DNA of 64,000 nucleotides from Antedon mediterranea (lineage: Eukaryota > Echinodermata > Crinoidea > Comatulida > Antedonidae). Position 1 is the stretch's first letter; each line of letters begins with the position of its first letter. The notes under the pieces are model-generated. The model was not told the origin of the DNA. It ran no database searches and saw only the letters and a program-made list of their open reading frames with translations. Location: assembly GCF_964355755.1 (NCBI RefSeq), contig NC_092676.1:10522288-10586287 (forward strand). Reading direction: 5' to 3'. The translations under genes were made by a program, and so were the position numbers. Below, one piece after another: positions 2,850 to 57,600 of the stretch.

Positions 2850-3180
2850 ACCGAATGCCACTTCGCCGACAGACTACTGGTCGACAGACTATTCACCGAC
2901 CAGACATTTTGCCGACAGGACATTTGGCCGAAAGGACATTCGCCTACAGAATCGACATTTTGTCGAAAACCATTTTGCCGACAGAAAATTTGCCAACAGA
3001 CAATTGATCCACAGACACTCGACTGACAAGTCATTTTGCCGACAGGCATTTGGCCGACAAGGTTTTCTGACATTTATACAGTTGGCCGACATACAATTAA
3101 TCGGCAGACAATACACTCACAGGTTACATTTTGCCGACAGGATTCTTTGCCGACAATATTACTGGTCATCAATACACTAA
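2850..3180. repeat. degenerate short tandem repeat, GCCGACAG motif
   Basis: About fifteen loosely spaced copies of a 15-20 bp motif close to CATTTTGCCGACAGG run in one orientation, with substitutions such as TTGGCCGA and TCGACAG. They open long but meaningless frames on both strands. Arrays of this kind often form one arm of foldback elements, but no inverted partner was seen nearby. Confidence 0.6.
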
Positions 3181-3315
3181 TTATAAATATGAGTTTTGAA
3201 CTGAATTGAAAACGTTTTGCATGTTACGAACACCGAAAAATAAAGTGAATACAAGAATAAATGTATAAACAATTATTCCAAAAAATCAGATTCATATTAT
3301 CGTATTACAGTCCGT

Positions 3316-3487
3316 TTTGATAACCCCCCCCCCCCACCCCTTGCAAAAATGTTGAAATATTATAACAAATGCTTGGTAAATTGTAGAAAACAGTGTGATG
3401 AATTCTAATACAAAAATATTATAATTGTGTTATTATAAATGTGAATGGACGTTTATTATATAGTTGGGTTGGGGGGGGGGGGGGAAT
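3316..3487. repeat. short inverted repeat with C-run and G-run ends
   Basis: A run of C preceded by AA (about 3325-3340) and a run of G after TT (about 3468-3484) face each other across ~130 bp of AT-rich DNA. This may be a very small inverted-repeat element, or simply two homopolymer runs. Confidence 0.35.
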
Positions 3488-3490
3488 TAT

Positions 3491-4921
3491 TATTCAAAGT
3501 AATGTTTTATTGGAGAGGTGTTTATTAAAATAAATACCATCTTAATAATTATTAATACATTATTTAATTTAAACATCTTTTGAAACTAACTGCCGTGACA
3601 GAGTGGGCCCAAGAAAGAAGACATTACGGCTTGCAACATGGGCAGACATCTCGGTCCTAACGGGACACAGGAAGATAGTCTACAGTTATTCCTGCCAGCT
3701 TACTCAATAAAACTCAGCTATCGGGATTTCACTCGATTTAAAAAAAATGTCTTATCATCAAATCTCGACCCTATGTAATTTTATAATACTATTCCCCACA
3801 ATATATTCCGATTCTTTATGGCGTATATTTAATTTGTTCTTTATTAATTTGCAGTATAATTTCTATTTTTTAACTACTGTACCTTCAAACACGCGCGGTA
3901 TGTTTTAAAATAAACAAAAAACTGAAATGGCTATGACTAATGGCCAACTTAAGCTCCAGTCCTACTATCTGATTTTTTTTTTCGTCTTCCAAAGGGACAC
4001 TGTATTGATTGATGGAAAGTGCCTGTTTCCCGTCACCTTTAGGGTCAAATCTATTATTTTAACTGCTCCCTTGTGTATAAAAGAGAGAAAATAGTTGAAA
4101 CCAGGTTGTTGCAAGGTGAACTTATCGTAAACCCGGAAATTACTTTGACCGCGAAGAATTGAAATTTAGTTGAAAATCTACTGTTGAAATCATAAATTTT
4201 GTTAAAAAACTCTTTATAATATCTTCCTAAGATAGAAATATGGAACAATAGCGTCGAACTGAACACTAATGTTATCAAATCTACGTTTCGCGGTACATCT
4301 GAGATAGATAAGGTAGGTAGGCCTATCCAAGGCAGAGATTTGTACCGAAGTTTTTGCATTGTGCTCGCCTATGTCAGAATTAACCATAATTTATATATAG
4401 ATAAACAATTATTGAAGCATCCGTGCATTAACATCCATCAAACAGTGTGTAAAACGTTCGGAAAACACCCCTCGTGTGAATTTCATAATCGTCTAGGCCT
4501 AATAAATATTGATTTAGATTATCTGTCCTAATTATTTAGGCTTAATTTTAGTTTGTAATTGATGAATTATGATGCGTTTTTAACCTGATGTTCAGGTTTG
4601 ATTAATCTGCCATATTCGTGTTTTATTTGCGTGTGTTCAGCTTGTATTGTAAATAGGCCTATAAAGTGAGCCACAGGTGAAATAGGTTAAAAACGGCCGA
4701 TTTGGAGGTTTTAAACTGGGTTAGGTTGAATAAGACATTTTATTTAATGCTTTTGGTAAAGCCTAAGTGGGGGTGACATAAACTGACATTAGCGACATTG
4801 CCTACCGCTCCATAATCAACTCCAACCTTTGTGTAGGCCCTAATTAGGATGTAGGTAGGCCTAGGCACTAAACTTATTTATTTAGTGTAGTTCCACTTCG
4901 ACGAACGTTTCTCATTGTATG
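3491..4921. other. non-coding stretch, no gene recognised
   Basis: Only short unconvincing frames occur here, the longest being 101 codons on the minus strand at 4054-4359 with no recognisable motif. No RNA gene or bounded repeat was identified. Confidence 0.4.
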
Positions 4922-5400
4922 TGTTATGCGCGATTTGAACGATTTGCGCAATTTAAAATTGCGCAAAGAATTCCTTGCGCAATTTGAATTGAAACATCTG
5001 TTTCAAATTGCGCAAGCAACGTATTAAATTGCGCAAGTAATCTGCAAACTGCGCAAGGTTTTTCGACAGATTGTGAAATCATGCACACCCATATTTTCAT
5101 AGTAATTTCTAAGAATGATTCAAAATTAAAGATAATATATCGCATTTCCTTATTTTAGTAGTGAAAATATTGTTATTGTTAGCATACCGTCGAAGACCCG
5201 ACAAAGGACCACAAAGGTGGTGTTCCCGGCGGGCGGCTAATAGTAATACTACTCTAGCCAAAGATGCTCTAGCCTACTGTATGGCTATGTTTTGATAGCA
5301 AGTCTAAACGTTGGTGGCGGTAGACTGTTGTGTATTACTACATTATTTTTTGTTATTTTTACATTTATTTTGATTTAATTTAAGTTAATATTAAGCTAGT

Positions 5401-5575
5401 TGTCGTGTATCGTCGTAGACAAATTAATAAGTACGTTGAGATGAGTATAATAATGAACGTATTTAATGAAACCAGCTAGTAGTTATGAACAATAGTATAG
5501 AACGTTTTGTAGGCTAACCTCGTCCGACCATATGCGCAGTACGCATATATTATATGTGCGCGTGCATATACTACA
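5401..5575 (-). repeat. 3' LTR of the Ty3/Mag-like element
   Basis: This 175-bp repeat is almost identical to 9985-10159. In element orientation it begins TGTAGTATATGC and ends with the complement of TGTCGTGTAT. The purine-rich tract lies immediately inside it. The right-hand half carries a run of alternating ATATAT/GCGC sequence typical of a small LTR promoter, but no initiation site can be fixed by eye. Confidence 0.92.
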
Positions 5576-5818
5576 CTCCTCCTTTCTTATTTTAACGTTA
5601 ACATTATATCAATAAGCACAATAAACTTTCGTTAATTATTTTGTTAATCAAATAGGTTAATCATCGTGATTAAATTACTGCTTCTATAGTTCCAGATAGT
5701 TCTTATTTGGTTCCTCATAATAATTAACAAATGTGAGTAATTCTCACCATTATAATTTTGTGTAAAAACATGAACAACATAACTTTAACGTTCATAATAA
5801 TAACATTGTTCACAAGTT

Positions 5819-8800
5819 CTATATCTCTTCGATAAGTCGTGTTGGCTTCCTTCGAAGTCGCGTGGAGCGTCGTGGAATAACCTCAGGCGATGAAGACAAT
5901 CTATGTTCCTCTTCAACCGGTTGGTTGGTGGATGTTTGCTCTTTGTTCGCAATCATTTCGCTCGCAATCGTTATTGGTACTGTCTGTTTAATCTTGTGTT
6001 CCAACTCGCTATGTGAAGTAGGGGTTTTACTCGCGTACGCGTCCGCGTCTGTCGCTTTCAACTGGTCAATGTGTCTTTTCCACACTCGGCCATCCTCAAC
6101 ACTAATTACGTATGATTTTGGAGCGGTACGTTCTATCACGGTACCTGGCCACCACTTTCCCTCTTGTCGGAAATCTTTCACTAATACCATTTCACCTGTG
6201 TAAAATTCTCGTAGATCTTTCGTTTTGTCGTGATGAAGCTTCTGATCACTCTGCTTGTTAAGTACCTTGTTTTCTGTACTGGGATGTAAAAGTGATACTC
6301 GCGTTCTTAACTCACGGCCCATGAATAACTTCGCTGGCGTTTGTCCCGTAGTTGCGTGTTTTGTTGTGCGATACGATAAAAGAAATCTGTCCAAACATTG
6401 TTGGAAATCCTTCCCATTAGCTCGGCTTGCCGCTAACGATCTTTTGAAAGATTGAACCATTCGTTCTGCTGCTCCGTTGCTTGCGGCGTGATAAGGTGCA
6501 ACCTTTACATGTTTCACCCCGTTTTGCTTTAAGAAGAATTCAAATTCGTCGCTAACAAATTGAGGTCCATTATCGCTTACAAGTTGAACAGGCAATCCGT
6601 ATCTACTGAACAACTCTCTCATCGCTTTGATGGTCGCTGCACTCGTCGTACTGTTCATCTGAACGACTTCTGGCCATTTCGAATATGAGTCAACCACTAC
6701 TAGATAATCTCGTTTATCTTTCTGCGCATAGTCAATATGTATTCGTGTCCAAGGCTGATTTGGCCAGATCCAGGGCATCATTGGTGCTACGCTTGGTCGA
6801 CTTTGTGTTTGGTGACATGCTTGACATTGCTTCACCAATCGTTCAATGTCGGAATCTATCTGGGGCCACCAGACATGACTTCGCGCAATCTCTTTCATAC
6901 GCACGATTCCGGGGTGAGCACAATGAAGCTCCTCCAGAACTGCCCCTCTGAGTTTCGGTGGAATCACTACCCTGTATCCCCACAGCAAACAGTCCTGTTC
7001 TACACTCAATTCGTCTCTTCGGTGTAGGAATGGTTTTAGATCGTCGTCGTTTTCTGACTGCCATAAACCTGTCTGTACCATGTATAACACTTTGCTCAAT
7101 AGCGGGTCTTTCCTGGTATGCTGTTGTACGTTCGTACTCGTGACTGGCAAATTGTCTAATGTATGCCCCGCTATGTTATATACTGCATCGTCTTCCCGTC
7201 CTTCGTATGGCATTGGGAGACGTGAGAGTGCGTCGGCAATTACGTTCTGTTTTCCAGGAATGAACTTTAAATCGTATTCGAACGCTGACAGCACGATTGC
7301 CCATCGCTGTAATCTCTGTGCGGCCAGTGTCGGAATAGCTGATTTAGGTCCTAGAATGCGTTCAAGTGGCTTATGATCAGTTCTTATCGTGAATTTCCGT
7401 CCGTATAAGTATGTTCTAAACCTTTGAAGTCCAAACATGATGCTTAGGGCTTCCTTGTCTAGTTGTGCATAACCCTTTTCGTGTTTATGCAGGCTTCGCG
7501 ATGCGTACGCGATCGGTGTTTTGATATTGTTCTCGTTTACGTGGCAAATGACTGCGCCAACTCCGTATGGTGATGCGTCCGTGTATAGTTCCAGTGGTTT
7601 TAATGGGTCATAATGCGTCAACATCATGTCTTCGCTAATAATTCGCTTTACCACGTTAAACGCTTTACTACAGTCGACAGTCCATGACCATGGTTTGCTT
7701 CCCAACAGCTCATTCAAAGGATGTATCATCGTCAATAATCGTGGAATAAATGACGCGTGATAGTTAACTAGTCCTAGCCAGGATCTTAGTTCTGTTGCAT
7801 TCTGTGGTGCTCGTGCATCCTTGATGGCTTTCACTTTATCGTTTGTCGGTTGAATTCCTGCTGCTGATAGCTTACGTCCCATGTAGACTACTTCCTTTTG
7901 TACAAACGCGCATTTCTCAGCTTTCACTCTGAGACCATACTTGTTAAATCTCTCAAATAGTTTCTCAAGATTACTAATATGCTCTTTATCAGACGCACCT
8001 GTAACAAGAACATCGTCCATGATCGCACATGTTCCTTTAAGTCCTGCTATCACCTGTTCTATGAATCGCTGCCATATGGCTGGACTGGACGAAATACCAA
8101 ACGGTAACCTCGTGTATCGATATAATCCGCGGTGCGTGTTGATCGTTACCAACTCTTGCGCCTCGTCTTCCAGTACTAACTGCTGGTACGCACATTTCAA
8201 ATCAATCTTAGAAAATCGCTTTCCACCTCCCAACTTGGTGAAAACTTCCTCTGGGGTCGGAATTGGATATTGGTCGCAATTTAAACTCGGGTTGACTGTT
8301 ACTTTATAATCTCCGCAGACACGTACCCTGCCATCGGCCTTTGGAATACATACCAATGGGGTTGCCCACTGACTAAAGTCTACCGGATAAATAACTCCTT
8401 CGTTTTGCATTCTGTCTAACTCTACCTCAACTGCGGAGCGTAGCGCAAATGGAACATTTCGAGCTTTGCAGAATTTTGGGATTGCGTTCACTTTTAGATG
8501 TAATGTCGCTTTGTGTCCCTGAACCGTACCTAATTCCGTTCGGAAAACTTCTGGGAACTTCCGTTTGAATGACTGACCGACATCGTTATCTATTTCTACC
8601 GAATTCTGAGCAAGCGATGGTGGAAATAATGACTTCCAGTCCAACTTAATCACTTCTAACCAGGTTCTTCCAAGCAAGGGTGGTGAGTTTCGTCGCTGTG
8701 TTCTCACTACTATCAGTGGGAGAACGTTACTCTGGCCCCTATAGTTCACGGTGACTTTAATTTCTCCTGCTATATCGAGCTTAGTACCTGTGTATGCGTG

Positions 8801-10319: not shown

Positions 10320-10510
10320 CTGCTGCGCAATTTGACAATTTTACAAATTGTGCAGCGCAATTTGAAATTGCGCAAGGATTTTCTTGCGCAATTTGATATT
10401 GCGCAAGTTGATTGCGCAATTTGAAATTGCGCAATTTCAAATTGCGCAAGAATTCTTTGCGCAATTTCAAATTGCGCAAGGAATTTTTTGCGCAAATTGA
10501 AATCGTTCAA
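10320..10510. promoter_or_regulatory. array of TTGCGCAA palindromes, C/EBP-site-like
   Basis: About ten copies of TTGCGCAA occur in under 200 bp, several as the full ATTGCGCAAT or ATTGCGCAAG. ATTGCGCAAT is the established consensus for C/EBP-type bZIP proteins. The array is the right arm of the TIR element and ends ~475 bp before the start codon of SLC22-like gene A. The motif is plain in the sequence; a regulatory role is inference. The short frames it opens are artefacts. Confidence 0.5.
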
Positions 10511-48600: not shown

Positions 48601-51600
48601 TAAAATTAGAAAATATATTAGCATGTAGTATGTCTTAAAGCTATCCATTTTTCTATACTTATTTCTTTATTGTTATATGGTTCACATTCAATGTTATATA
48701 GCATATTGCTTTTAAATGATCTCCATAAAGATTTACCCACTGGCTTATTTAATGTTGATAACATTTTTATTCTATAAATAGCGGAAGGCTGCAAATTTGT
48801 AAATATAATCTACTAGCTTATCTCCCGTTCCTAGTATTATTGCTTATATGATATATTATTGTGGTTTAAACTTAAAAAGATACTAAACATTTTCCTCCAA
48901 AATTTTTGAATAAATCTACAACTAAAAAACAAATTGTTTTCATTTTCAATTTCTCAACATTTGTCACTTCACACGTTTGTGTTTCTCTAACTTTCCACTG
49001 ATAAAGCCGTTTGTTGGTAGGCAGTATTCTATGTAACTTCTTATAATAGATTTGTGCTAATTTCTTATCCTTCAATTTACACACTTTCCGTAACCAAGTA
49101 ACTTTTAATATTAATGATTTATTGATTGGGATTTGGATGTTTACTTTCAGTTAGTTGAAAAATGTTTGCCTTGCATTATAGGCAACTATCAGAAGTTTGT
49201 AAAATAGAAACACAATGAAGCAACTCAGTGTGTATGTTAAATTCAAGTTATTCCAGTCAACTTACGTCTATATCATTATCTGGTAAAATGTTTTGCCTCA
49301 CCGTTTTTTTTTATGTATGTATAAAAACAATATAATGAAATATCTATTCCCTACTGATGAGAAATTTATTTTGAAAAGCAATAAACACACACCCACACAG
49401 AATCTCGAGAAATATCAAGGATCAATAATATTATTGGAATGTATGATGTTCTATTAAAATGTTTGCCTGGCCTTTAAGGTCACGTGACATTATTATGTCA
49501 TTCGTTTCCTTTCCTGATCAAAACCAATTATTTATTGTTTCTTTCTTCTTAATTAGTGGGATTTGGTCTGTGAGGATAAAACTATACCTGCCATTGCTCA
49601 GTCTATTTTCTTTACAGCCGTTTTAGTTGGATCGATGGTTGTTGGTTCTTTGTCTGACAGGTATGCCTATGATACGTAGCACTACAATAGATATAATAAA
49701 ATAATACTGAGAAAAGCATAAGTAACTTTTCTAGGTATTTATTTATGCATTATTTTCGTTTGTTTTACTAGATATGGAAGAAAACCAATGTGGTTCATAT
49801 CAATTATAGTACAGTGTATTGCTGGATTTGCTGTTGCATTTTCTCCCAATTTGATTACGTATCTGTGTCTGCGATGTGTTGTAGCGGCTTGTAATTTTGG
49901 AATGTTCACTTTGTGCTATATTATCGGTGAGTCCGTAAACTATATGTGTTATACTTACGTAGCCGATTACTTGAGATAATCAATACGAAAAATTTGTTAT
50001 AGGTTTATTTTAAAATAAATTTGTACATTATGCATAAACTTGCTTGGGACATCAGAATATTGGAAAGATGAACATAAATGGTCATAGGCTACTGGAGCTA
50101 CACATCTATCATGACATCTGTATTATAAACACTTAAAAACCATAGTACTGTATCATGGAAAATCCCAGATCTCATCAATGGCATCAACTTGATCTGATTA
50201 TCACTAGGCGGTCTTCATTAAATAACTATAAGCTATCGTAAAGTGCGTCTTCAACTTGGTAAGATTCACCACTCCAATGCAAATAATCGTTAGCCTGTAT
50301 CAGGCCTAGCATATTTCAATTTTATGCAAGGTCTGCTCTTCTAAACCTTCCGAATCAAGATGCTACAGCCAAATGGAACACCATGAAAGAAGCAAATTAC
50401 AATACAGCTACAGTATTTCTACCTTTAGAAAGAAGGAAAGAATTACAGTAGTCACAACTTTCAAGTAATTGAACGAGCAATTGAGGCTAATAATGTTTAG
50501 CAGACACAAGATTTCCATATTATACAGTACTCAGTCACTTTGTTAACACTTAAGAGTACTTGTGGTGCTAATTAGGATTGTTTACAACTCGTCACGATTG
50601 AGAAGGTGTTCTCACACAGATCGCGAGGAAGTTTTATGATTATGTATACAGAGTAGCCAAACAAGCGCGTTGCATTATGAGATGTGTTTTGATCGAACAC
50701 TTTGAACAAAAAACGTCTGTATTTCAGTTAAATGATTGTTTTTTTCGACAAATTTTTGGTGAAAGTTAATGGCTATTATGATACTTGAAAATGACCCACT
50801 TTTTTCGAAATTGTTTTATTTTATTTTTTTTGGGAATTAATCAAAGCGAGAATACATCTTTAAGGAATGATCTAATTTATATCTATGCATGGTGTATACA
50901 CATTCTGGGCATTATTTCAATATGAACATAATTGACACACATTACGATGACAGTGGCTTTTTCGTATTATCACAGTTTTTTTTCGTTTTCTCGTTTGAAT
51001 TAAATTAATAATTACTTGATTTTCAGTGTATCATCGGCGGTTTAGAAATGTTGTTAAATTCATGTGAAGGTTTATTATTAGTCCGTGTACTATCCATGGT
51101 GTAACACTCGTAGCGTCTTGTTGTGGTGTATACAATCAAAAATGAAAATTATAACAAATAGGCATAATGAAGAAACTAAGCCCTAAATACAGTAATTGTA
51201 AGGTTGACTTAGATAAATGGAGTACTATGCCTGGTACAAGCCTATAAACCAAGAAGAACAAATTCAAAACAACCTGTCCAGTGTGCATAGGTATACCATG
51301 GAAGAGTGGTCAATTCACTCTTCTCTGGGTATACTGCCTGCAATAAACTGAACGGTGTGCATAGGTATACCAGGGAAGAGTGGTCAATTCACTCTTCTCT
51401 GGGTATACTGCCTGCAATAAACTGAACGGTGTGCATAGGTATACCAGGGAAGAGTGGTCAATTCACTCTTCTCTGGGTATACTGCCTGCAATAAACTGAA
51501 CGGTGTGCATAGGTATACAAGGGAAGAGTGGTCAATTCACTCTTCTCTGGGTATACTGCCTGCAATAAACTGAACGGTGTGCATAGGTATACCAGGGAAG

Positions 51601-54600
51601 AGTGGTCAATCAACTCTTCTCTGGGTATACTGCCTGCAATAAACTGAACGGTGTGCATAGGTATACCAGGGAAGAGTGGTCAATTAACTCTTCTCTGGGT
51701 ATACTGCCTGCAATAAACTGAACGGTGTGCATAGGTATACCAGGGAAGAGTGGTCAATTCACTCTTCTCTGGGTATACTGCCTGCAATAAACTGAACGGT
51801 GTGCATAGGTATACCAGGGAAGAGTGGTCAATTCACTCTTCTCTGGGTATACTGCCTGCAATAAACTGAACGGTGTGCATAGGTATACAAGGGAAGAGTG
51901 GTCAATTCACTCTTCTCTGGGTATACTGCCTGCAATAAACTGAACGGTGTGCATAGGTATACCAGGGAAGAGTGGTCAATTCACTCTTCTCTGGGTATAC
52001 TGCCTGCAATAAACTGAACGGTGTGCATAGGTATACCAGGGAAGAGTGGTCAATCAACTCTTCTCTGGGTATACTGCCTGTAATAAACTGAACGGTGTGC
52101 ATAGGTATACCAGGGAAGAGTGGTCAATTAACTCTTCTCTGGGTATACTGCCTGCAATAAACTGAACGGTGTGCATAGGTATACCAGGGAAGAGTGGTCA
52201 ATTCACTCTTCTCTGGGTATACTGCCTGCAATAAACTGAACGGTGTGCATAGGTATACCAGGTAAGAGTGGTCCATTCACTCTTCTCTGGGTATACTGCC
52301 TGCAATAAACTGAACGGTGTGCATAGGTATACCATGGAAGAGTGGTCAATTCACTCTTCTCTGGGTATACTTCCTGCAATAAACTGAACGGTGTGCATAG
52401 GTATACCAGGGAAGAGTGGTCAACTCACTATTCTCTGGGTATACTGCTTGCAATAAACTGAACAAAAAGCTCATGGGAGCATAAATAAAAAGACATGTGC
52501 ATAATGTCTGTCATAATGGTGTGGTACTAAATAAAGAAAGAAATAAGTAATATATAGTTCTACTCTACTAATAAGTAATACACGGTATTAGGGTTAACGA
52601 GAAAAACGTGCTTATAGACGACCAAAGTTGTTGATCTAATGTTTATAGACAGGTTCCATTTCTCAAAAAACGGCCTAGAAAACGAATCAAGAGGCATTTT
52701 TGGGTAGAAGCTGGGATCCACTTGATTTAGGATATTTCGACCTCGCTGATTACAAATATGGCGGATCCCAAGCGAAATTCGGCCATCTAAGCCCTTAATT
52801 TGCATAATTAAAAATGGCGGCCATTTTTTATATCTACCCTATATCTCAAGAACCACTAGTCACAGATAATTAATTTTGGTCTGAAAATGTTTTAAATATA
52901 TGTTTTTATATTCACTTTAATGACACATTTTCTCCAAAAATGGATGCAAGTCTTATTTCTGACATTTTGACCTTTGACCTTTATTTATCGTATCTCAGTA
53001 ACCAATAATCGGAGAGACATGAAATAGGGCTCAAATTGTTCAGAAACTATACATTCATATTTATTATAATGAAATGTTTTTACAAAAAATGGCCGATTCT
53101 ACAACTATTGACCTTTGAACTATTAGTCAAATATAATAATATAATAATAATATAACTTTGAAAATTGTGGTCTTATGAATTTTTTTTCTTTTTAAATTGT
53201 TTAAAACATGTGTGTTTCTATCCAGTCTAATGGCACATTTTGTACAAGAATGGCCGATAGTATGGTTATTGACCTTTAAACTACAGCATAGGCCTACTGT
53301 ATACTAAATATAATATAATTGCATAACTATGAAATTATTTATACACAATAATAATTAGTAAATTATAAAATTCACTGCCATCAAATATGATGTGTTATGA
53401 TTTATATAGATTTAAAAAAAAATTGAACACGCAAGTTACATTTGTTGAAATTTGAAATTTGAAATTACCTGCCATCAATATGATGGTGTATGATTATAGA
53501 TTTTTTTAAATGTGAACATGTCAGCTACATTTGGAAATTACCTGCCATCAATATGATGGATTATGATTATAGATTTAAAAAAGAATTTGATCACGTAAGC
53601 TACATTTGAAAATTACCTGCCATCAATATGATGGATTATGATTATAGATTTAAAAAAGAATTTGAACACATAAGCTACATTTGGAAATTTGGAAATTACC
53701 TGCCATCAATATGATGGATTATGATTGTATAGTACCTGCCATCAATATGATGGATTATGATTATAGATTTAAAAAAGAATTTGAACACGTAAGCTACATT
53801 TGAAAATTACCTGCCATCAAAATGATGGATTATGATTGTATAGATTTAAAAGAAAATGTAAACACGTAAGCTACATTTGGAATGAACATGTTAAGGGCAT
53901 CAGTTTAAGATCATTCATGCAAAGGTTTCCGTCATCTTTAGCGTTGTTTACAGCGGCATAAAGCTGTACATGGTAGTTTTGACTTCTTGCACCTACATCT
54001 ATTGGTTATGCATCGTGTCTTGCATCCACAATAAATCATCTCTAACGAAGCAGTAGGAATAGCTTCATTTTTCAGAAGCACTGGTTGAAGTTTACCATTA
54101 GATAGCTCCCAACCAAAATCTGTTGGTGATGGCAAATGCTGGATTGGCGATACAGCTTTTTTCCATACGAGTGCTTGGAAGTGTGCTCTTTTTATATGTT
54201 GGTGCACTGCATCGCTTGTTGGAGGTAATGCCTCTGGTTTTTTTGTTTTTTTTTAAAGCCTAACTTCATTGGTAATTTTAACTTGACCAACACCGTAAAC
54301 GTAGCAAATGAATCCTTCCAATTTCATAATAACTTGGTCACTGATAGGTTTTCTCCCAGGTCTTTAATTAGTTCATAATTTTGTTTTAATACTTCCCATG
54401 CCGATGCCTTTGAGTGACCACTTAGATATGAACAGGGAAGAGTTAAATTACTGTATGTATGTATTAATGTAATTTAACTCTTCCCTGGATATGAGGTAGT
54501 ATTGCTTCCACTAATAGTGTGGAATGGAATCAGTGCTTTTGCATAACCCCCGGGCAAGGCTTGAAAAATGTCTTTTATATTATAGATACTTTCTTTTTTT

Positions 54601-57600
54601 GGATGTCTCTGTCATCATCCATTTGGATACCATGCTTTGGTAGTGAGACACTAGAATCACTAGTACGCCTGTATCCCTAGAAGCAACTACAACTGTGTCG
54701 TATCGGACATTGGCAGCATGACAAGTCTCGTGTCCGATTTTTCATGATCTGCGACCAGAGACAACGTATTCGTGTAGACTTTTGATGATTTAACAACTGA
54801 TTCTTTCATAAATCCACCAGCTGTGACAATTTCTTTGTCTATAGGAGCTTGACAAATCAACTCCTCTGATAGAAATCGTGCCAGATCTGCTTTATTATCT
54901 TGTAATGCCAAAAAGTTTGACCAGCAATTTGGCAGCGGTATTTCACCACTTTCTATAATTCGACGAATTGGTCTCTGTGTTTTGATTCATCTTTGTCTAG
55001 TGGTGTCCTTTATCGACAGTTTTAAGTTAGGCATGCCATGTTAAAAAAACAAAAAAAACCAGAGGCATTACCTCCAACAAGCGATGCAGTGCACCAGCAT
55101 ATAAAAAGAGCACACTTCCAAGCACTCGTATTGAAAAAAGCTGTATCGCCAATCCAGCATTTGCCATCACCAACAGATTTTGGTTGGGAGCTATCTAATG
55201 GTAAACTTCAACCAGTGCTTCTGAAAAATGAAGCTATTCCTACTGCTTCGTTAGAGATGATTTATTGTGGCTGCAAGACACGATGCATAACCATATAGAT
55301 GTAGGTGCAAGAAGTCAAAACTACCATGTACAGCTTTATGCTGCTGTAACAACGCTAACAAAGATGACGGAAACCTTTGCATGATGAATGATCTTAAACT
55401 GATGCCCTTAACATGTTCATTCCAAATGTAGCTTACGTGTTCACATTTTCTTTCAAACCTATACAATCATAATCCATCATATTGATGGCAGGTAATTTCC
55501 AAATTTCCAAATGTAGCTGACGTGTTCAAATTCTTTTTTAAATCTATAATCATAATCCATCATATTGATGGCAGGTAATTTTCAAATGTAGCTTACATGT
55601 TCAAATTCTTTTTTAAATCTATAATCATAATCCATCAAATTGTTAGCAGGTAATTTCCAAATGTAGTTGACATGTTCACATTTTTAAAAATCTATAATCA
55701 TACTCCATCATATTGATGGCAGGTAATTTCAAATTTCAAATTTCAACAAATGTAACTTGCGTGTTCAAATTTTTTTTTAAATCTATATAAATCATAACAC
55801 ATCATATTTGATGGCAGTGAATTTTATAATTTTACTAATTATTATTGTGTATAAATAATTTCATAGTTATGCAATTATATTATATTTAGTATACAGTAGG
55901 CCTATGCTGTAAAGGTCAATAACCATACTATCGGCCATTCTTGTACAAAATGTGCCATTAGACTGGATAGAAACACACATTTTTTAAACAATTTAAAAAG
56001 AAAAAAAAATTCATAAGACCACAATTTTCAAAGTTATATTATTATTATATTATTATATTTGACTAATAGTTCAAAGGTCAATAGTTGTAGAATCGGCCAT
56101 TTTTTGTAAAAACATTTCATTATAATAAATATGAATGTATAGTTTCTGAACAATTTGAGCCCTATTTCGTGTCTCTCCGATTATTGGTTACTGAGATACG
56201 ATAAATAAAGGTCAAAGGTCAAAATGTCAGAAATAAGACTTGCATCCATTTTTTGAGAAAGTGTGTCATTAAAGTGAATATAAAAACATATATTTAAAAC
56301 ATTTTGAGACCAAAATTAATTATCTGTGACTAGTGGTTCTCGAGATATAGGGTAATTATAAAAAATGGCCGCCATTTTTAATTATGCAAATTAAGGGCTT
56401 AGATGGCCGAATTCCGCTTGGGATCCGCCATATTCGTAATCAGCGAGGTCGAAATATCCTAAATCAAGTGGATCCCAGCTTCTACCCAAAAATGCTTCTT
56501 GCACCATATTTCAGAGGAAATAGAACTTGTCTATTACTTGCACTTAAAGGGTATAGATGTTGTGAAATGGATTGTACACGAGTTTTAAATCATTCAAAAT
56601 AAATATTTTCTTGCTTGCACAATTTTGTTTCATAGGTACTGAATGGGTAGGACCAAGTTACAGAAAAGCCGTTGCTATTTACACATCAATAATGTGGGCA
56701 ACAGGCTACATGCTGCTTGCTGTGTTTGCTTACTTCTTTACAAACTGGAGAACATTGGCAATGGTGACTTCCCTGTCAGGTGGACTATTATTGATACTTT
56801 ATCCGTAAGTAGTAGCCTTCTAAAATATATTGAAAACACAGTTTAAACGAATACAAATTAATATTAATATAAGAAGGATAGCAATAGAATGATTAATAAT
56901 TTGTGTATTATTTATTATTTTATCATAATAAAGACTTTTATAAAATCCGTTTTTTACTTTGCCTAATCCTATTTTAACTAAAAAACCGATGTGATTCAAT
57001 TAATAATTTAGGAATCTCTCGTCCATAGAAAATAACATAATTACGTATAAAATCGATGTTATTACCGAATTCCCAAGAGAGTCATTTCTTATTCCAGATT
57101 GTTACTTGGTAGAAAAGCATTTTTTGTACAGTATTTCCCAGGGAGTTATTACTTCAAACAATTTATTTTATCATTTTATTGAGAAATAGGCCTAAAGCTA
57201 TGAAAATAAACAAGTAATCCTTAATATTAAATTTATACTTTAAAATGATGTAAAACTAATGTTTTATGATTTTTTTTATCTGTGAAATCTATATAATGAC
57301 ATTTTGAAATAAAATTGTGATTTCATTAATTTATTCATCAGTGGAAAATTACTTCTATTCATTGTCATTTGCATATGAAATATACTCTATATGCTCTAAG
57401 ATATACAAAATACGTCAATTTAGAACTGCTTGTAATTTTCCAAAATACGTCAACTTGAGGGCGCTATAAATTATCTAAAATACGTGAATTGTCCAAAATA
57501 CGTCAAATTGAGGACGCTATTCATTTTCCAAAATACGAGATTTGTCCAAAATACGTCAATTTGGGACTGCTAGTAATTTTCCAAAATACGTCAACTTGAG

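Follow-up and report, generated by a model that had tools for sequence, protein, structure and literature searches.

A short palindrome in a foldback repeat of Antedon mediterranea is very probably the excision footprint of a P-superfamily transposon

A palindrome of 55 bp occupies positions 54433-54487 of the window, the whole stretch of 64,000 nucleotides of Antedon mediterranea DNA that was analysed. The question is whether so small a unit moved by itself or was left behind by something larger. The earlier note on this DNA had read it as a mobile unit of no nameable family. We conclude, with a probability of roughly 0.9, that it is not a mobile element but the excision footprint of a P-superfamily transposon.

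The palindrome has two perfectly complementary arms of 19 bp and a centre of 17 nt, and not the total of 57 bp and the 17-bp stem claimed before. The direct repeat that is exact in the window copy is 7 bp, GATATGA (54425-54431 and 54488-54494). The flanks of this copy are 8-bp target site duplications, GATATGAA on the left (54425-54432) and GATATGAG on the right (54488-54495), the left one differing by one substitution from the ancestral GATATGAG, and in the paralogues L023, L024, L025, L028 and L029 an intact 8-bp GATATGAG lies on both sides. Five genome matches to the 29-nt empty-site sequence, with one to two mismatches, are natural copies of the host repeat that lack the insertion; four hold a single GATATGAG and the remaining one holds AATATGAG. 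Paralogues and empty sites together rule out the 6-bp duplication proposed earlier: the length is 8 bp at this site, and most other loci have 7 bp. Read on the minus strand, the sequence of the empty site gives TTSYLSGHS. The net insertion at the window site is 63 bp, so the minus-strand frame continues in phase, and a stop is introduced (TTSY-PGKS*...-SYLSGHS). When the window was scanned for palindromes flanked by exact duplications, three low-complexity rows were the sole result; the palindrome at 54433-54487 was missed because its duplication carries a substitution.

Compared with the 33-bp terminal inverted repeat (TIR) of longer elements in the genome (L032, L084 and L099, described below), the left arm is a retained transposon end on the plus strand, with 19 nt identical to the parent TIR (54433-54451). 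The right arm is the opposite end, on the minus strand (54469-54487), and arm measurement against the TIR gives it 19 nt, or 21 nt with the two preceding bases. The centre (54452-54468) is composed of a 15-nt filler, TGTATGTATGTATTA, and 2 nt (AT) that match the TIR of the opposite strand as well. The row for L023, which has the sequence of the window copy, accordingly gives retained arms of 19 and 21 nt and a filler of 15 nt. What the earlier note said of an insertion, a true target duplication, an interrupted reading frame and paralogous empty sites was therefore borne out, whereas the duplication size and the reading as a mobile micro-unit were not. The paralogous copies do not all carry the hairpin, and most of the fetched genome matches do have flanking duplications.

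The host of this scar is a long foldback repeat (52900-56289) with inverted arms, for example 54003-54253 against 55043-55293, which are 98% complementary. Three open reading frames in the window were searched against Pfam and matched no family. The scar and its flanks are common to the window copy and nine fetched copies of the host repeat. At 51281-52463 of the window, a tandem array contains 16 copies of a 74-bp unit. The unit includes another scar of the family, 31 bp in length and with one mismatch in its right tip, between two GGTATAC repeats; here a scar has turned into satellite DNA. In L072 (positions 1-970), about 26 CAGGGAAGAGT units of 37 bp stand in tandem, with a palindromic scar at the end of the array. 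Positions 10355-10503 of the window hold tandem, partly palindromic GCGCAATTTGAAATTGCGC repeats. L138 and L157 represent a single host site present twice on C3, and their scars, of 35 and 41 bp, differ by a short internal stretch.

We searched the genome (354 Mb in 18 contigs) for further copies. The 19-nt arm, with at most one mismatch, occurs 431 and 403 times, compared to 0 and 1 in the control. The genome contains 389 palindromes in which exact ends of 11 nt are separated by 0-30 nt, and the reversed-pattern control gave 0; the combination of palindrome and flanking direct repeat noticed earlier is thus confirmed far above chance, with its details corrected. By length of the centre, the searches returned 114 palindromes (0-7 nt), 106 (9-16 nt), 96 (17-22 nt) and 68 (23-52 nt), all of them lower bounds, as the searches required exact arms of 11 nt or more. 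In the last class the 55-mer of the window, with small variants, makes up 27 of the 50 matches listed (68 counted). The loci for analysis came from among the matches listed, 50 places per search: the first 28 near list order, ten (L021-L030) from the 19-mer list, and 80 chosen by eye in favour of different sequences. These 118 palindromic loci and the window copy give 119, which grouping by flanks reduced to 101 independent loci. Outside the 101, 20 single-arm matches (L063-L082) comprise 12 pairs with a near-perfect duplication, one 37-bp tandem array and 7 without a pair. L031 (C1:3581915-3582741), a 427-bp sequence with matching TIR tips, was excluded from the counts; its flanks are mutually inverted and it has no target duplication.

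Perfect duplications flank the palindrome at 68 of the 101 independent loci, 61 of them 7 bp and 7 of them 8 bp long. Ten more loci have a duplication with one mismatch (8 of 7 bp, 2 of 8 bp). By the criterion used, 23 of the 101 are without a duplication, and 11 of these 23 are partial matches, compared to a chance expectation of 13% per locus. When left and right flanks were re-paired at random (2000 runs), the mean was 1.1 and the maximum 6, against 68 observed, where the control took the first copy of each group and the observed count the best copy. The 7-bp duplications have a palindromic consensus, GTTATAC, with G at 40, T at 53, T at 37, A at 29, T at 28, A at 50 and C at 36 of the 61 sites.

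The full-length relatives L032, L084, L099 and L100 are 2.4-3.2 kb long. Their 33-bp TIR is exact in the first three and has one substitution in L100, and their duplications are 7, 7, 7 and 8 bp. In three of the four, a subterminal inverted repeat of 15 bp lies 55 and 117 bp from the ends. A search with L032 (2,593 bp) found two copies at 99% identity and several at about 96%. The inner half of the TIR, GAGTTAAATTACATGGAAAACTC, occurs only 30 times in the genome with at most 3 mismatches, versus 834 places for the 19-nt tip. These parent elements have the architecture of the P superfamily: a TIR near 31 bp, a subterminal repeat and a 7-8-bp duplication. No transposase was found inside or adjoining any CAGGGAAGAGT element, none of the 35 genome matches to PF21787 being placed in one, and the other fetched P loci have no CAGGGAAGAGT ends. 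A tblastn match in L095 was rejected as a link to a transposase since it is a low-complexity repeat. A family can nevertheless be named where the earlier note saw none, as mechanism and architecture, rather than protein, suggest that the CAGGGAAGAGT parent belongs to the P superfamily. At about positions 258-300 of L085, a TIR tip of about 14 nt directly abuts an element end from which the first 5 nt are missing, an arrangement that resembles the cutting and rejoining of a single end.

Retained arms were measured at the 101 loci (202 arms) against three TIR variants. They span 11-21 nt, the lower limit being set by the search, and none of the 202 reaches 22 nt of the 33-bp TIR; 36 arms are 14 nt long, 33 are 18, 35 are 20 and 11 are 21. 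Because centres as long as 52 nt were admitted in the search, any longer arms would have shown. One possible exception, outside the fetched loci, is C2:25421606, where the match to the TIR continues past 21 nt. The 21-nt arms may be chance extensions beyond a cut at about 20 nt. The two tips are joined through a filler at 52 loci, by an overlap at 31 and flush at 18, and the fillers of L104, L109 and L122 contain 10-nt copies of the arm (L122 is without a duplication). Palindrome sequences are distinct at 86 of the 101 loci. Where independent loci do have one palindrome in common, the joint is an overlap or flush in every case, as microhomology predicts. Fillers of at least 3 nt differ from each other at 40 of 40 fetched loci, a diversity favoured by the choice of distinct sequences by eye. 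Filler-bearing sequences that recur in the genome were not all fetched (a frequent 41-mer on C3, sequences of 41 and 42 nt on other contigs, a 38-mer on C5). Those fetched repeatedly (the L001 group, L004 and L019, the 55-mer, the L109 group) have their flanks in common, and each is therefore one event copied along with its host.

These measurements bear on the idea that the 23-66 bp palindrome is an ultra-short MITE, a unit that a transposase moves by way of its ends, with a 7- or 8-bp duplication made at each new site. Such an element would account for true duplications at many unrelated sites and for identical sequences at independent ones, for example a 24-mer and a 29-mer at 5 loci each. 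We nonetheless consider it very improbable. The sequences at more than one independent locus are just those with overlap or flush joints, the fillers vary from locus to locus in a sample drawn partly by eye, and the filler-bearing copies fetched more than once trace back to single events. Arms that end at 21 nt of a 33-bp TIR also speak against a mobile unit, and the Drosophila P element, as described in PMC1562414, requires 138 and 216 bp at its ends for movement.

P-transposase families in the same genome provide an internal control. PF21787, the P-type RNase H, has no matches in 14 control genomes. The CTGAGACAACA family was bounded by L051-L053, which have 7-bp duplications and a 794-aa open reading frame matching PF21787 and PF21788. 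The CAAAGATCTTAT family was bounded by L061, with the duplication GTTTCAG and matches to PF21787 and PF12017. Palindromes of the tips occur at 14 sites for CTGAGACAACA and 22 sites for CAAAGATCTTAT, with 0 in the reversed controls. Among ten palindromes fetched from each family, 5 of CTGAGACAACA (two of which share their flanks) and 8 of CAAAGATCTTAT have perfect 7- or 8-bp duplications, and the maximum arms are 17 and 19 nt, respectively. A possible exception to the 17-nt limit is a CTGAGACAACA palindrome outside the fetched set (C4:11928009-11928059), the filler of which holds AAAGAGATTGG, element sequence from beyond the limit. Families that encode P transposases thus leave the same type of scar in this genome.

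Some of these elements deserve mention in their own right. The three 5.5-kb P elements L051-L053 (C1:2819415, C3:37946354 and C8:6204861) are 99.0-99.5% identical, and this near-identity together with the open frame suggests recent activity. L083 (C5:18467400-18474400) was considered as an autonomous CAGGGA-type parent and rejected, as its transposase belongs to another P element, one of the CAAAGATCTTAT family, which is nested at 2889-6308 and has GTTTCAG on both sides. That nested element and the one in L061 (1198-4583) are of one family, occupy the same GTTTCAG site and resemble each other in their flanks; the site, already filled, was therefore copied along with its host.

The palindromes could also be remnants of internal deletion, in which slippage or aborted gap repair removed the interior of full elements of another superfamily, such as hAT, and excision played no part. 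Elements of the hAT superfamily also often begin with CAGGG, and their duplications are mostly 8 bp. Some loci are indeed products of this kind: one end of L087 survives as 19 nt and the opposite end as 102 bp, and L086 has one end only. As a general account we judge internal deletion to be highly unlikely. Its end points would be expected anywhere in the 33-bp TIR or beyond, contrary to the arm limit; the perfect duplications are predominantly of 7 bp and not of the hAT length; and families with P transposases leave equal scars alongside. A palindrome maintained by selection as a protein-binding or replication site, with accidental duplications, would fit the perfect palindromes and the amplification of some in tandem arrays, and is scarcely credible: for most loci the duplications, perfect at two-thirds of them, already refute it, and the natural empty sites and a centre that varies freely also speak against it.

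An excision footprint is the reading indicated by the flanking duplications, TIR tips with a fixed inner limit, joints of the end-joining kind and the same scars from known P families. A P-superfamily transposon with 33-bp TIRs starting CAGGGAAGAGTTAAATTAC would have entered the host repeat and created the 8-bp duplication. Later, a P transposase would have excised it with widely staggered cuts, about 20 nt in from either end, so that some 20 nt of each end stayed on the flanking DNA as single-stranded tails. End joining would then have reunited the tails, in part through microhomology and in part with short, sometimes templated filler, and the product would read, in order, duplication, TIR tip, filler, inverted TIR tip and duplication. 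A cut at this distance followed by end joining would explain both the arm limit and the types of joint. In our best explanation the foldback host repeat multiplied after it had been scarred.

The excision mechanism itself is already known, and what is new is the number and readability of the natural scars. A literature search of titles and the beginnings of abstracts returned no report of a genome-wide set of P-excision scars, which is no proof of absence. Junctions of P excision had been described in laboratory flies, and this one reference genome contains hundreds that arose naturally, representing at least three families and accompanied by their target duplications. There is an even chance, in our estimate, that the genome is a graveyard of P-type excision, in which scars of the CAGGGAAGAGT family outnumber resident elements by more than 10:1, its own transposase or a related one has all but eliminated the family, and the cut offsets of extinct or unknown transposases (about 20 nt, with 17 and 18-19 nt in two other families) as well as germline repair over evolutionary time can be read from the scars by themselves. 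If this is true, the length of the stagger is a variable trait within the P superfamily and is not fixed at 17. Excision without re-insertion, later loss of elements and copying of scars with host repeats may all contribute to the excess of scars over elements. With natural scars, three questions become matters of counting: the position at which an unseen transposase cuts, the way in which germ cells joined the breaks (microhomology, templated filler), and the extent to which a family is lost by excision as opposed to decay. They also call for caution in repeat annotation, since a palindrome of 23-66 bp flanked by good target duplications can be a scar rather than a miniature transposon.

Several known systems can be compared with these scars. 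The P transposase is described as cutting 17 bp inside the 31-bp TIR and leaving long tails (PMC7776569; PMC10983969), and the canonical P element/THAP9 of Drosophila and zebrafish (Pdre2) as having a 31-bp TIR and an 11-bp subterminal inverted repeat at unequal spacing (PMC7776569). The CAGGGAAGAGT family resembles this description in its TIR and in the unequally placed subterminal repeat of three of its four elements; it differs in its end sequence, in that no transposase was found, and in a cut that would lie nearer 20 nt. Galileo, a member of the P superfamily in Drosophila, has duplications of 7 or 8 bp with the palindromic consensus GTATTAC according to PMC4168063. The duplication lengths here are the same and the consensus GTTATAC is similar, whereas the TIRs of Galileo are very long and foldback-like and those here are 33 bp. 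The Anopheles P-MITEs are presented in PMC1562414 as short non-autonomous relatives of P with its TIRs and duplications. The scars are likewise short and combine TIR sequence with duplications, but P-MITEs have P-derived ends of less than 100 bp each around an unrelated core and are read as mobile, while the scars keep at most 21 nt of each end. P{wa} junctions in Drosophila melanogaster have the same anatomy. According to PMC2895639, two copies of an 8-bp duplication there enclose tips of both TIRs, at most 17 nt each, and the joint between the tips is flush, uses microhomology or contains templated filler. The same paper reports that long microhomology joints are lost among P-excision junctions of Drosophila pol theta mutants. 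The scars share this order of duplication, tip, joint, tip and duplication. The P{wa} junctions, as reported there, were made in the laboratory at one locus, with 8-bp duplications and 17-nt tails, whereas those of Antedon mediterranea are natural, number in the hundreds at differing sites, and have mostly 7-bp duplications and tips of up to about 20 nt.
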